Shown in pieces: positions 1 to 60,069 of a stretch of DNA of 60,069 nt (position 1 is the first letter of the stretch; each line of letters opens with the position of its first letter). This stretch comes from Cryptosporangium phraense (GTDB lineage: Bacteria; Actinomycetota; Actinomycetes; Mycobacteriales; Cryptosporangiaceae): assembly GCF_006912135.1 (NCBI RefSeq), contig NZ_VIRS01000041.1:1-60069 (forward strand), given 5' to 3'. Position numbers and translations under genes: made by a program. The notes under the pieces are model-generated. The model did no database searches, had not been told where the DNA came from, and saw only the letters and a program-made list of their open reading frames with translations.

Positions 1-1197
1 CCCAGCGCCCCGTCGGCCCCGGCCGCGTCGGCCCCGGCCCCCGCCGCGTCGGCCGACCCAGTCACGCCCACCCAGCGAACGCCCACCCCCCCGCTGACCC
101 CGGCCCAGCCCCCGAGCCCCGCTCAACCCCTCAAGCCGGCCCAGCCCCTGAAATCAGCCCAGCCCCTGAGCCCGGCTCAACCCATGAAGCAAGCCCAGCC
201 CTCGACACCGGCTCAGCCTTCGATACCAGCTCTGCCCCTGACGCCGGCTCAGCCCCTGATATCGGCTCAGCCGATGACGCCGGCTCAGCCCCTCGTCCCG
301 GCGCAGTCCGCCGCGCCGGACGAACCGTCCACGGCACCGGAGACGACCGAAACAGACCCCACCACCCCCACCGAGCTCCCGAACGCGCCCGCCCCCGACG
401 ACGCCCCATCCGACGACAACACCCCCACCGGCCCCCACGTCCTCGCCGCCGACCGCCCCAGCACCCCCGAAGAACGCCAACTCGTCCGCGTCTCCCTCGG
501 CTGGCGTTACGACACCGAAGCGCGCGAGATCGTCGTCCTCCTCGCCGAGCGCCCGGGCATCCGCACGGCTGCCGCCGGACAAGCCGACGCCATGGTCACC
601 GAGCTCGTGGCCCTCCGCGCCTTCCTGGCCGCCGACCCCGGCGCCCTGGTCACCGCCCAGCGGACCGGCCGCATCGGCACCGACGGGCCGCTGCTGGCCT
701 GCGTCACCGGGGGGTTGCGCCGGGTGCCGTCGTACCGCGGGGTCGCGTTCGCCACCGTGCCGGGCGGCGCCCACGCCGGGCGCGGGCACTACCGGCCCGG
801 ACGGCTGCTCTGGGAGCCGGCCCCGGTGGTCGCCTCGGCCCGCCGGACGGCGGTGCGCCCGGACGACGTCGACTTCGTCCTCTGGTCGTCCACCGGACGC
901 CGGTGCGAGGACTTCGTGCCGGACCGGGAGACGCTGCCGATCATCTTCTCGCCCAGCACCCGCTTCGGGGTGCTGGCCACCGAGGAGACCGCGGCCGGCG
1001 GGTTCCGCGTCTACCTGACCGAGGTACGGACCCGCGACCTGCACCGGTGGACCGGAGAGACGGCCGAGGCCGACGACCGGATCCTCACCCGCCTGCGCGA
1101 CGCGGCGCGGAACGCGCCCGCGGCCGGCCCGTCGGCGGCCGTCCCGCTGATCGGCTTCAAGCCGGACGACCAGCCCTTCACCCCACCGGCCGACTGA
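1..1197 (+). CDS. Hypothetical protein with Pro-Ala-Gln repeat N-terminus, 5' partial
   Basis: The frame is open from base 1, so the gene begins before the window; an internal ATG at 184 gives 337 residues. The N-terminal part is a low-complexity tract of six-residue units of the PAQPLx kind, rich in Pro, Ala and Gln, then an acidic Thr/Pro linker. The globular part starts near base 440. It has an order of motifs that recalls ADP-ribosyltransferase folds: YRG at 733-741, a YRPG segment near 790, and an FSPSTRF hairpin near 946-966. The Glu-x-Glu normally placed before such a hairpin reads Thr-Leu-Pro here, so if the fold is right the enzyme is inactive. That assignment is my inference. The gene lies 18 bases before the next same-strand gene and is probably in an operon with the beta-helix ATPase. 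Confidence 0.75.
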   Translation, partial: PSAPSAPAASAPAPAASADPVTPTQRTPTPPLTPAQPPSPAQPLKPAQPLKSAQPLSPAQPMKQAQPSTPAQPSIPALPLTPAQPLISAQPMTPAQPLVPAQSAAPDEPSTAPETTETDPTTPTELPNAPAPDDAPSDDNTPTGPHVLAADRPSTPEERQLVRVSLGWRYDTEAREIVVLLAERPGIRTAAAGQADAMVTELVALRAFLAADPGALVTAQRTGRIGTDGPLLACVTGGLRRVPSYRGVAFATVPGGAHAGRGHYRPGRLLWEPAPVVASARRTAVRPDDVDFVLWSSTGRRCEDFVPDRETLPIIFSPSTRFGVLATEETAAGGFRVYLTEVRTRDLHRWTGETAEADDRILTRLRDAARNAPAAGPSAAVPLIGFKPDDQPFTPPAD

Positions 1198-48509: not shown

Positions 48510-49673
48510 ATGTCGTCCGACTCAGGCGCCCCCCAGGGCCCAGATTTTTCTTCCGATCCCGAGTCCGCGCCGAGCGGGGGCGCCTGGGGCGAGCGTGCCT
48601 CGTCGGCCGAGACCGCCTGGGGCCGACCGACTCCGGCGGTCCACCCCGGCACGGGCCCGACCGCCGCGCCGGGGGTGCAGCTCACCCCGCCGCCCCCGGC
48701 GCGGCCCACTCACCCCCTCCCACCGGGGTCACCTTCCGCGCCGCCGTCGGGAGCTCCCGCGTCCCCGGCGGGGAGGTTGCCGTATGGGACGTCCGGCGGG
48801 ATCCCGCCGTACTGGGGGCAGCCGTCGGCGCCGGGCGGCGGTGTGCCGGGCGGCGGTGGGCCGGGTGGCGGTGGGCCGGGTGGCGGTGGGCCGGGTGGCG
48901 GTGCGCCGGGTGGCGGTGGGCCGGGCGCGCGGCGGTGGCCTCGGGCGATCGCGGCCGGGGCCGTGGTGCTAGCTCTGGCCGCCGCGGCCGGCGGAACCGC
49001 CGGCTACGCCACCACCCACGCATCCGCCGTCGCCCCCGCCGGGGCCCCGGCCGCGCCCGGCCTCGCTCCCGGTGCCGACGCGACCGCGCTCGTCGCCGCG
49101 GCCGCCCGGGCGCTGCCCGGCGTCGTCTCCGTGCAAGCGGGCCGCGCGTCCGGATCAGGGTTCGTCTTCGACGACGACGGCCACGTCGTCACCAACAACC
49201 ACGTGGTCGCCGCCGCCGACGGCGGCCCGGTGCGCGTCACCGGGCAGGACGGTCGCAGCCGCCGGGCCGACGTAGTCGGCACCGATCCGTCGAACGACAT
49301 CGCCGTCCTCGCGGTCGACCCCGACGGCCTCGAAAAGCTCGAAAGAGCCGACCTCCGCACCACTCACGTCGGCGAGCCCGTCCTCGCGCTCGGCTCACCC
49401 CTCGGACTCTCCGGCACCGTCACCGCCGGCATCGTCAGCGCGCTGAACCGCGAGGTGCGGCTCGGCGGCGACGTCCGCCGGACCGCTGTGCAGACCGACG
49501 CCTCGATCAACCCCGGCAATTCCGGCGGCCCGCTGGTCAACGCCCGCGGCGAGGTGCTCGGCGTCAACACCGCCATCGCCACCCTCGACGGCAACGGAAG
49601 CATCGGCATCGGCTTCGCGATCCCGATCGACCGCGCCGCGCAGGTGGCCACCACCCTCATCGCCCGGGGATGA
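48510..49673 (+). CDS. HtrA/DegP-like serine protease lacking a PDZ domain
   Basis: 387 residues from ATG 48510. Residues 1-145 are cytoplasmic, rich in Pro, Gly and Ser, with GGGGP repeats near 110-140. A membrane helix (AIAAGAVVLALAAAAGGTAGYA) at about 150-170 puts the catalytic part outside. The trypsin fold carries His in TNNHVVAA, Asp in SNDIAVLAV and Ser in INPGNSGGPLV. It ends at IDRAAQVATTLIARG, where other HtrA proteins continue into PDZ, so this domain is absent. It is followed after 6 bases by a response regulator and its kinase, an arrangement like MprAB-PepD of mycobacteria with order changed. Confidence 0.92.
   Translation: MSSDSGAPQGPDFSSDPESAPSGGAWGERASSAETAWGRPTPAVHPGTGPTAAPGVQLTPPPPARPTHPLPPGSPSAPPSGAPASPAGRLPYGTSGGIPPYWGQPSAPGGGVPGGGGPGGGGPGGGGPGGGAPGGGGPGARRWPRAIAAGAVVLALAAAAGGTAGYATTHASAVAPAGAPAAPGLAPGADATALVAAAARALPGVVSVQAGRASGSGFVFDDDGHVVTNNHVVAAADGGPVRVTGQDGRSRRADVVGTDPSNDIAVLAVDPDGLEKLERADLRTTHVGEPVLALGSPLGLSGTVTAGIVSALNREVRLGGDVRRTAVQTDASINPGNSGGPLVNARGEVLGVNTAIATLDGNGSIGIGFAIPIDRAAQVATTLIARG
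48837..48930 (+). repeat. 15-base Gly-Pro coding repeat in the HtrA-like gene
   Basis: GGTGGCGGTGGGCCG and slight variants occur about six times in tandem, each coding GGGGP. The repeat lies in the linker before the membrane helix and could change length by slippage. Confidence 0.8.
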
Positions 49674-51920: not shown

Positions 51921-51992
51921 TGCCGCCGCGCCGCAGCGCCGGGGCGCCGGGGCGCCGGGGCGCCGCAGCGCCGGGGCGCCGGGGCGCCGCGG
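51921..51992. repeat. GGGGCGCC tandem repeat between convergent reading frames
   Basis: The 8-base unit GGGGCGCC is repeated in two blocks of two to three copies, each headed by CCGCAGCGCC. The GGCGCC cores are self-complementary, so the RNA of either strand would fold strongly. It lies one base after the stop of the minus-strand RNase H-like gene and may stop transcription from both sides. Confidence 0.7.
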
Positions 51993-51993
51993 G

Positions 51994-54234
51994 TCAGGTG
52001 CGGGCGCGGAGTTGCCAGGTGTCGCCGGTTCGGGCCGCGGTGAGGCGGATCTGCCAGCCGGGCTCGGCCTGCTCGGCGAGGCCAGCCGGAACCGGGACCG
52101 GCCCGATCGTCCGCCCGTCGCCGTCGTCGAACGTGATCGACTCCTCGCCGACGCCCACGATCACCAGCGCAGCATCGCGCACCCATTCGTCGGGAGCGCC
52201 GCCATCCCCGGCTTCTTCCTCGAGCCAGAACTCGAGCTCTTCGACGAACTCCCGCATCTCGTCCCCGACGTCCGCGACGTCCCCGTCGTTCCCGTAGTCG
52301 TCCGCGGAGCCGTCCCGGTAGCCGTCCGCGGAGCCGGACGCAGCGCCGACCGTTGGGCCAGAGGTGGAGCCGGACGCGTAGTCCTCCGCCGCGCCGAAGG
52401 CGGAGCCGGACGCGGAGTCGGGCGCGGAGCCGGGCGCCGAGGGTGCGGCAACGTTCTCTGATCCCTCGCCGGGCTGCGCCGAACGGTCGGAGTCGCCAAT
52501 TGGTGCCCGGCTGGGCACGGGGTCACCGGCCCGAAATGGCAACCCGGTCCGCTCTCCGCTGGGCCGCCCCAAAGTACTGGCCGGACGCATAGCCGCCACG
52601 ATCTCCGCCGGCAACCCTCGCCCGGCCACCCCCCGCTCAACCGGGCCTGCCACCCCGCGTGCAGCACCACCCTCAGCTGTGCCGCCCTCATCCACCCCGC
52701 GCCCATTTGCCCTGCGCGCAGTTGTCGAGCGTTCAGCTGCCCCGCGCTCGGTTGCCCCGCGGTCGGTTGCCTCGTGCTCGGTTGCCCCGCGTTCGGTTGT
52801 CCCGCGTTCAGTTGCTTCGCGCTCAGCCGCGCGGCGACCTGCCGCAGCCGTGGCTCCGCGCTCCGCTGGTGTCTCCCGAGGCCCTACCTCCGCTGCCGAC
52901 ATCCTCTCCGAACCGCCCGCCGCATCGCGCTCCGCCGCACCCAGCCCGCCGCGCTCCGCCGACTCCGACGCGCCGTGTCCCCTGCTGGAAACCGGCTCGC
53001 CAGCCGCCCCCCGCACCTCTCTACCCGAGGCGCCACCCACGCCCCGGTGTTCGTCGGCACCCCTGTGTTCGTCCGCGCCCTCGCGCTCGCCCGAGCCCCC
53101 GCGCTCGGCCCAGCCCGGGACGCCGTGTTCGGACGCGCTTGGCATGCCGCGATCGGCCGCCCCGCGTTCAGCTGCGCTCGCCAGGTTGCCTTCCGCGGCG
53201 CCGCGCGTCCCGCGCTCGGCCGCGCCTATCGCGTTGCGCTCCGCCACCCCGCGTTCAGCTGCGCTCGCCAGGTTGCCTTCCGCGGCGCCGCGCGCCCTGC
53301 GCTCGGCCGTGCCGCGCTCGCTGACCCTTGGCTCGCCCGCATCCAGTGTGCTTTGACGGGCTGTTCTACGTTCGGCCGCGTCTGCCGCCCCGCCGTCGGC
53401 CGCGCCCGATTCACCGCCCGCGGTCCTGGCGCGCTCTGCCGTGCCCGCCGCACCGCCTTCGGCCGCGCCGCGTTCGCCCGCGTTCGCCGTCCCGCGCTCG
53501 GCCGCGCCGGCTGTGCTGCGCTCTGCCGTGCTGGCTGTGCTGCGCTCTGCCGTGCTGGCTGTGCTGCGCTCTGCCGTGCTGGCTGCGCTGCGCTCTGCCG
53601 TGCTGGCCGCGCCGCGCTCTGCCGTGCTGGCCGCGCCGCGCTCTGCCGTGCCGGCTGTGCTGCGCCGGGCCGTGCCGGCCGCACCGTGCTCTGCCGCGTC
53701 GGCCGCGCCGCGCTCTGCCGCGCTGACCGCGCCGGCCGCGTCGGCCGCGCTGACCGCGTCGGCCGCGTCGCGGTCGGCTGCGTCCATCGGTCTGCGCTGG
53801 CGCGCGTCCGGCGCCCGGTCCGTGGGGACCGAACCCTCCGGCGCGGCTGCGGCCGAGCTCGGGGGCGCAGCAAGCTCGGCGGCACGCGCCGCCAGAGCGG
53901 CATCCACCACCACCCACTGCACCCGATGCCCCTTGACCGCCGTCCCCAGCCGGCCCCACAAATCCGCATCCCGCTCATCGGCCACTCCGCCGGCCAGCCG
54001 AGCCGCCACGCCGTCTCGCACGTACGGGCTGTCCGTCAGGACCGACACCACCGACGGGCGGGTCAATCGCTCCACCGCGGTCACGACCGCCAGCAGCGAC
54101 ATCCGCTCCCGGGAACCTCCGTCGCCCGCTCCCGACAGCTCCCGCCGAGCGTCGCCGTGGGTCAACAGAGCACCCCACCTACCTGCGCCCCCGCAGGCGT
54201 ACACCACGACCCGCGCGGGCTCGGCCTCGACCAC
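51994..54234 (-). CDS. Degenerate RNase H-fold protein with long Ala-Glu-Arg repeat and C-terminal domain
   Basis: 746 residues from GTG 54234, chosen because AGGAGG (54241-54246) stands 6 bases before it. Residues 1-120 follow RNase HI order: VVVYACGGAGRWGALL, HGDARRELSG, RERMSLLAVVTAVERL, SVLTDSPYVRDGV, DLWGRLGTAVKGHRVQWVV and ARAAELA. The catalytic acids are mostly gone: TDG is ACG, RMEL is RMSL, the last Asp is Ala; only TDS keeps its Asp. Residues about 135-620 are low complexity, with many AERGA units; eight copies of an 8-residue period lie at 53501-53692. The last 110 residues are acidic then globular (FVEELEFWLEEEAG, SITFDDGDGRTIGPVPVP). It should be a binding protein, not a nuclease. 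Confidence 0.78.
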   Translation of the reverse strand: MVEAEPARVVVYACGGAGRWGALLTHGDARRELSGAGDGGSRERMSLLAVVTAVERLTRPSVVSVLTDSPYVRDGVAARLAGGVADERDADLWGRLGTAVKGHRVQWVVVDAALAARAAELAAPPSSAAAAPEGSVPTDRAPDARQRRPMDAADRDAADAVSAADAAGAVSAAERGAADAAEHGAAGTARRSTAGTAERGAASTAERGAASTAERSAASTAERSTASTAERSTASTAERSTAGAAERGTANAGERGAAEGGAAGTAERARTAGGESGAADGGAADAAERRTARQSTLDAGEPRVSERGTAERRARGAAEGNLASAAERGVAERNAIGAAERGTRGAAEGNLASAAERGAADRGMPSASEHGVPGWAERGGSGEREGADEHRGADEHRGVGGASGREVRGAAGEPVSSRGHGASESAERGGLGAAERDAAGGSERMSAAEVGPRETPAERGATAAAGRRAAEREATERGTTERGATEHEATDRGATERGAAERSTTARRANGRGVDEGGTAEGGAARGVAGPVERGVAGRGLPAEIVAAMRPASTLGRPSGERTGLPFRAGDPVPSRAPIGDSDRSAQPGEGSENVAAPSAPGSAPDSASGSAFGAAEDYASGSTSGPTVGAASGSADGYRDGSADDYGNDGDVADVGDEMREFVEELEFWLEEEAGDGGAPDEWVRDAALVIVGVGEESITFDDGDGRTIGPVPVPAGLAEQAEPGWQIRLTAARTGDTWQLRART
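53161..53309. repeat. 62-base imperfect direct repeat inside the RNase H-like gene
   Basis: The segments 53161-53222 and 53248-53309 differ at two bases only. They encode the same GAAEGNLASAAERG phrase twice, showing recent duplication within the low-complexity region. Confidence 0.8.
53501..53692. repeat. 24-base tandem repeat, eight copies
   Basis: Units such as GCCGTGCTGGCTGTGCTG plus CGCTCT repeat every 24 bases at 53501, 53525, 53549, 53573, 53597, 53621, 53645 and 53669, the outer ones diverged. Read on the minus strand each codes TAER followed by four small residues. Confidence 0.85.
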
Positions 54235-54364
54235 GAACGACCTCCTGGATGCACCGGTTGCACCCATGATCCCCCGTCCAGCCGCAGCCACGCGGACCGC
54301 CTCCACAGGCCCGCCCGTGTCGTGGCGTCCGTGATCTCGAGGAGCCGGAGTCCTAGGTGGAGCG

Positions 54365-59738: not shown

Positions 59739-60069
59739 CCCCGAGCACGCCGGCTCGAACACCCCGCACCGACGGCCGCCCCCGGACTCCGGCGTTCCCC
59801 GGCCGATCCCGCCGCCCTCCGCCGCCGCCCGTATGCCCCGCCCGATTACACCCCGCCGAATGCTTCCCGCGCCGACTCCCTGCCCCGGCCAAGCCCCACC
59901 TGCCCGCGCCTGACCGGCCACGCCCGGGAACGGCCCGCGCCTGAGGGATGGCCCAGGCCCGGCCATGGCCTACGCCCGGCCCAGCCACGACCCGCGCCCG
60001 GCCTGTGCCACGCCCGGCCCGGCCCACGCACGGCCTGTGCCACGCCCGGCCCGGCCCACGCACGGCCTG
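59739..60069. other. C-rich region without a gene, right edge
   Basis: 331 bases with strong C excess on the plus strand. Frames on either strand are low complexity in Pro or in Gly, Arg and Trp and have no family resemblance. The last 70 bases are tandem repeats. Confidence 0.6.
60000..60069. repeat. 32-base tandem repeat cut by the window edge
   Basis: A 32-base unit starting GGCCTGTGCCACGCCC occurs at 60000-60031 and again, identical, at 60032-60063; the next six bases (60064-60069) begin a third copy. Degenerate copies are visible leftwards to about 59940. The array continues beyond the window. Confidence 0.85.

Follow-up and report, generated by a model that had tools for sequence, protein, structure and literature searches.

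The window analyzed here, a 60,069-nucleotide stretch of Cryptosporangium phraense DNA taken as a whole, carries on its reverse strand a gene whose protein product we call PRH. The open reading frame, its coordinates, the GTG start and the Shine-Dalgarno site were all as given in a preliminary description of this DNA. The four genus genomes compared were that of the window (G000) and three others (G001, G002 and G003). The gene, its parts and its upstream neighbour are as follows:

51994..54234, minus strand: PRH gene, 746 amino acids plus stop, GTG start; a probable RNase HI-derived pseudoenzyme with orthologs in 4/4 genus genomes
54241..54246, minus strand: Shine-Dalgarno sequence AGGAGG, 6 nt before the GTG, sequence and spacing identical in 4/4 orthologs
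53869..54234, minus strand: N domain, residues 1–122, predicted RNase H fold without three of the four catalytic carboxylates and without the basic protrusion
52615..53868, minus strand: linker, residues 123–540, Ala/Gly/Arg/Glu-rich with an 8-residue period and a net charge of about zero
52522..52614, minus strand: 31-residue conserved motif, residues 541–571, LPxExVAAMRPASTLxRPxGERxxLPFRxGD, 77%–94% identity among the four orthologs
52261..52521, minus strand: acidic Ser/Gly/Ala/Asp-rich stretch, residues 572–658, net charge per residue −0.14
51997..52260, minus strand: C-terminal domain, residues 659–746, a helix followed by a five-stranded barrel, OB-like according to a model of low confidence, 50%–80% ortholog identity
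54365..54739, minus strand: REC (single-domain response regulator receiver), upstream neighbour of PRH, Pfam Response_reg 2.5e-28

The repeat, which had been put at 480 residues, measures 418 residues as the linker. The end of the protein had been described as a compact acidic domain; it is not a single unit, and the acidic character belongs to a low-complexity stretch (residues 572–658) which is followed by a separate domain (residues 659–746). The conserved motif at residues 541–571 was absent from that description. An 8-bp GCGCCGGG array of 7.8 copies was observed just 3′ of the PRH stop codon (window 51928–51989).

The N domain matched Pfam RNase_H at 32.1 bits (E 1.5e-7), which passed the cut-off of 25.8 bits, and PRH matched the NCBIfam RNase HI family at 54 bits (E 1.3e-14), below the 160-bit equivalog cut-off. 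A search of PDB sequences with the N domain returned 40 distinct sequences at E ≤0.001, all of them RNase H or RNase H chimeras, with a best E of 1.7e-9. These three sets of matches back the eroded RNase H fold proposed in the preliminary description. An AlphaFold2 model of the N domain (pLDDT 83.7, pTM 0.79) had the strand and helix order of RNase H, but the alignment used for it consisted of 25 viral-contig RNase HI rows and leans towards that fold, so the sequence matches are the firmer evidence. All 50 matches listed by Foldseek with this model were of RNase HI type (best E 2.6e-10, TM 0.71–0.81 by query length), and the predicted domain resembled E. coli RNase HI. In an 80-row tree the four PRH rows grouped together (support 100/100) on a long stem, and because of this long branch the parent of PRH was not placed within RNase HI. 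As judged from its sequence, PRH descends from RNase HI.

The N domains were aligned to ordinary RNase HI, and residues are numbered as in the E. coli enzyme. All four orthologs had YA(S/C)G in place of TDG, RMSL in place of RMEL and VVV(D/N)AA where the WVKGH region was expected, with loss of the final Asp. Only one catalytic carboxylate of D10, E48, D70 and D134 was left in each ortholog, the D70 equivalent (the Asp of TDS/TDN). The replacements reported earlier for the window's gene (TDG to ACG, RMEL to RMSL and the last Asp, with the TDS Asp kept) were confirmed, and the same three carboxylates were missing from every ortholog. The losses included the basic protrusion, which was deleted, the Asn pair before RMEL (TTNNRMEL replaced by (G/A/V)-(S/A/T)-R-(E/D)-RMSL) and the late KGH loop, again in 4/4 orthologs. 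In RNase HI these three elements contact the hybrid. As a control, D10, E48, D70, H124 and D134 were intact in 76/76 ordinary RNase HI loci, with N44 present in 76/76 and N45 in 75/76; these loci represent 67 different sequences, mostly the best-scoring of those fetched and not a random sample, and four of the 76 come from the stand-alone RNase HI genes of G000 and G002, both of which were retrieved twice. The available text of PMC1950709 describes the protrusion as involved in substrate binding and describes some active RNases HI without it, so a missing protrusion alone does not exclude activity. We infer that the PRH N domain has lost catalytic activity, although a rearranged site might conceivably retain some activity, given the Asp70 equivalent kept in all four orthologs.

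In a first search of 61 genomes a match was found in 21, with the four genus genomes at 152.7–258.1 bits and the other listed matches at 67.5 bits or less. Overlapping samples of the order (397 genomes), class (394 genomes) and phylum (276 genomes) were then searched with about 10–11 first-look candidates scored per genome. With the G001 ortholog as query, genus members scored at least 154.6 bits against at most 86.7 bits for others in the order sample, and others in the class sample reached at most 87.4 bits. The C-terminal module was detected in four of the order genomes, all of the genus, and in two of the class genomes, namely the window's genome and one weak match (G484, 22.5 bits) which was rejected as it appeared by eye to be an out-of-frame ORF opposite an apparent purL gene. 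A joined profile applied to the phylum sample with an E limit of 1e-30 found the window's genome only. No match to the N domain or C domain was found in G004, from the one other genus of the family searched. No relative was found in scans of genome contigs (one scan with two peptide patterns only, and with records near the window's genome perhaps left out), in viral contigs searched with the joined profile with two patterns, or in plasmids searched with the C-terminal domain only.

The N, motif and C-terminal parts were in one frame in each of the three unbroken orthologs, the window's included. The G003 gene was split over contigs C100 and C19, and both pieces ended in low-complexity linker. 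An assembly artefact was ruled out as the explanation for the layout because G002, a one-contig assembly, has the same architecture.

Selection was estimated by the NG86 method on the six ortholog pairs, and values are rough here because of high GC and near-saturated dS. The dN/dS was 0.15–0.34 for the N domain and 0.20–0.67 for the C-terminal domain, which is the faster evolving of the two and under weaker constraint. For the 31-residue motif, dN/dS was 0.04–0.16 in the three pairs with finite dS, and pN/pS was 0.16–0.23 in the other three. The AGGAGG, the 6-nt gap and a GTG-GTC-GA start were identical in 4/4 orthologs, which contradicts a different start site; no ortholog started elsewhere. 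The preliminary description had read selection from the intact 2.2-kb frame. For the repeat this argument failed: the G000 linker is free of stops in one antisense frame as well, and an open linker frame is then no evidence of selection. It is the orthologs that provide the evidence for selection.

Selection is not needed to keep GC-rich frames open, as the antisense linker frame illustrates, and the C-terminal domain dN/dS of up to 0.67 would also be in keeping with a decaying gene which is open by chance in 76% GC DNA. We consider decay extremely unlikely, as dN/dS well below 1 contradicts it for both the N domain and the motif, the start and Shine-Dalgarno sequence are the same in all four orthologs and the C-terminal end is conserved. 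A pseudogene was rejected on the dN/dS values together with the invariant AGGAGG-6 nt-GTG start. Within the genomes searched, PRH is very probably an RNase HI pseudoenzyme which is confined to the genus and maintained by selection.

The Ala/Glu/Arg/Gly repeat with an 8-residue period noted in the preliminary description is real. Amino acid autocorrelation at period 8 in the window's linker was 0.34 against 0.15 expected from composition, and TRF identified a 24-bp array at 53461–53758 within it. The length of the repeat varied among orthologs: the linker has 418 residues in G000, 327 in G002 and 156 in G001, and its strongest periods are 8, 9 and 6 residues, respectively (multiples of the period tie in G002 and G001). 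In these three genomes the charged fraction was 0.24–0.31 and the net charge per residue −0.02 to +0.05. Inside the linker, array periods were 9, 15, 18, 24, 27, 39, 45, 72 and 87 bp, together with a single 5-bp row. Periods of 5, 8, 16, 17, 20, 22 and 32 were seen in some of the window's other arrays. This pattern agrees with normal growth of repeats in which the reading frame acts as a filter. In all four genus genomes a 281-bp segment from the linker matched other places, and the seven regions which were read were GC-rich and repetitive. Third-position mismatch enrichment between repeat units gave a mixed result, being seen in G002 and G001 and not in G000, with counts that overlap. From its sequence, the repeat is best regarded as a lineage-variable spacer and not a conserved functional repeat. 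Repeats of three different periods have expanded at this single site, with the folded parts remaining constant.

Tandem repeats were also observed at other positions. Both contig ends (window 1–319 and 59918–60069) consisted of GC-rich tandem repeats, as if the assembly broke there, and repeats similar to these contig-end arrays occur elsewhere in the four genus genomes. At window 48830–48925 a 15-bp array of 6.4 copies encodes a PGGGG repeat in a 557-amino acid ORF which by eye resembles a trypsin-like serine protease. A 17-bp array was present between REC and PRH in G002.

The acidic stretch was 34–99 residues long over the four orthologs, with a net charge per residue of −0.16 and −0.26 in two of them, and the domain which follows was 88–93 residues long in orthologs. 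The C module gave no match at E ≤1 to PDB sequences and nothing better than E 0.16 (one member) in Pfam. In a single-sequence model of the C-terminal domain (pLDDT 61.4) a helix was accompanied by five strands, strands 3 and 4 being separated by a helix, a topology which fits the OB fold. The best Foldseek match to this model had an E of 0.036 and none was at or below 0.001; near-top rows included RuvA and RNase E S1, which we take to be OB folds. This is suggestive only of an OB-like domain, and the resemblance is not significant.

The preliminary description had put forward binding of RNA-DNA hybrids or nucleic acid ends as a role for the protein. PRH would then be a non-cleaving binder in which the N domain grips hybrids and the OB-like domain adds affinity, and RNase H and OB folds are indeed common in nucleic-acid proteins. 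There is also a parallel in the retroviral reverse transcriptase, where according to the available text of PMC11363490 an RNase H domain without catalysis became the connection domain. We nevertheless consider hybrid binding unlikely, as PRH lacks the known contact elements: the protrusion is deleted, the Asn pair before RMEL changed and the late KGH loop lost in 4/4 orthologs. The OB assignment is moreover not significant, and the linker is not basic but carries a net charge of about zero.

Genes for REC, MazG and TetR (assigned by Pfam) were syntenic with PRH in 4/4 genomes. REC was upstream of PRH on the same strand in each, and in the other three genomes it was 71.9%–75.2% identical to the window's REC. 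This constant position would be expected if PRH were the output or partner of REC, with phosphorylated REC binding PRH and shifting its location or partners. MazG (77.5%–81.5% identity) and TetR (69.6%–72.8%) are, however, about equally conserved in a block which is syntenic as a whole, so the adjacency of REC is no stronger than block synteny. The gap between REC and PRH was 133, 167, 685 and 2194 bp in the four genomes, and the 2194-bp gap, that of G003, contains an amino acid permease ORF on the opposite strand (L025:536-2644). As the gap varies and this ORF intervenes, an operon is not required, and we regard a REC partnership as improbable. An anti-phage role was considered and rejected, as PADLOC gave no match for PRH at E ≤0.01 and three weak matches, all of them to the REC domain.

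Stand-alone RNase HI, as defined by PF00075, was found in G000 and G002 only (2/4 genus genomes; G001 and G003 are drafts of 98%–99% completeness). The stand-alone genes of G000 and G002 occupied different positions in the tree, as if gained separately. A gene encoding an RNase H-histidine phosphatase fusion, separate from PRH, was identified by Pfam in all four genomes (His_Phos_1 190.9–198.5 bits), so PRH is not the sole RNase H-type gene of the genus. The fusion genes carry VEADGG, AEYSG, MDSKLV and ADALAN in 4/4 genomes, which when read by eye is a complete-looking RNase H motif set. PRH is more constant than stand-alone RNase HI across the four genomes. As a paralog which co-occurs with complete-motif RNase H genes in each genome, PRH might regulate the cell's active RNases H, either by forming a heterodimer or by competing for protein partners such as SSB. 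We think this quite improbable, since stand-alone RNase HI is present in only 2/4 genomes, at differing tree positions, while PRH is constant.

The reading which we tentatively favour, at slightly less than an even chance, is that PRH is a genus-specific RNase HI pseudoenzyme which acts as a tether or scaffold, a mechanism suggested by its anatomy alone. The scaffold role raised in the preliminary description is supported as such a reading. The N domain would now serve for binding, with a protein as its most likely partner, and the long linker would be a flexible spacer that drifts in length as its repeats expand in frame. The 31-residue motif would bind a second partner and the C-terminal OB-like domain may contact a third protein or nucleic acid, so that PRH would hold two or more partners within mutual reach. 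Against this, the linker is perhaps no more than a tolerated repeat expansion. A more specific form of the tether would be a new family with a dead RNase HI at one end of a length-variable tether and a private motif and OB-like domain at the other, delivering to a second partner a complex linked to nucleic acid, such as one associated with R-loops, SSB or RNA polymerase. PRH would then be a multi-domain scaffold that has a fixed role of its own in this one genus; we regard this as possible but doubtful.

A literature search of open-licence papers for inactive bacterial RNase HI or similar showed no described protein of the PRH plan among the papers listed. The familiar examples of RNase H folds which no longer catalyse are reverse transcriptases and a few distant members of the superfamily. 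To our knowledge no RNase H activity was found for the RNase HI-like YpdQ of Bacillus subtilis, which if so would be a precedent for a dead bacterial RNase HI; unlike PRH, YpdQ is short and has neither a linker nor an additional domain. With RNase HI itself (rnhA, NF001236 / PF00075) PRH shares the fold order, the RM(E)L helix, the TDS/TDN strand, the DLW helix and the HRVQW strand, but it has added the linker, motif and C-terminal domain and has lost carboxylates, Asn pair, protrusion and KGH loop. The reverse transcriptase connection domain, in the available text of PMC11363490, is likewise a former RNase H domain without catalysis which is now a structural module, whereas PRH is not part of a polymerase, is not viral, has a separate origin and carries a long repetitive linker. 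The bacterial proteins Tex and YqgF, as described in the accessible portion of PMC3985635, have RNase H-like folds in which the carboxylate set is rearranged or incomplete; they belong to other RNase H-like lineages, while PRH is nearest to RNase HI itself. The bifunctional RNase H-acid phosphatases SCO2299 and MSMEG_4305 resemble PRH in being actinobacterial RNase HI domains with a C-terminal extension (PMC7466739; SCO2299 also in PMC1950709), but they possess RNase H activity and PRH has no phosphatase domain; Pfam at E up to 1 matched PRH to RNase_H only, with no histidine phosphatase match. In PRH the closest relative is ordinary RNase HI, and an apparently dead copy is fixed in four genus genomes under selection while complete-motif RNase H genes persist elsewhere in the same genomes. 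PRH may thus offer a compact case for how a housekeeping nuclease becomes a binding protein.
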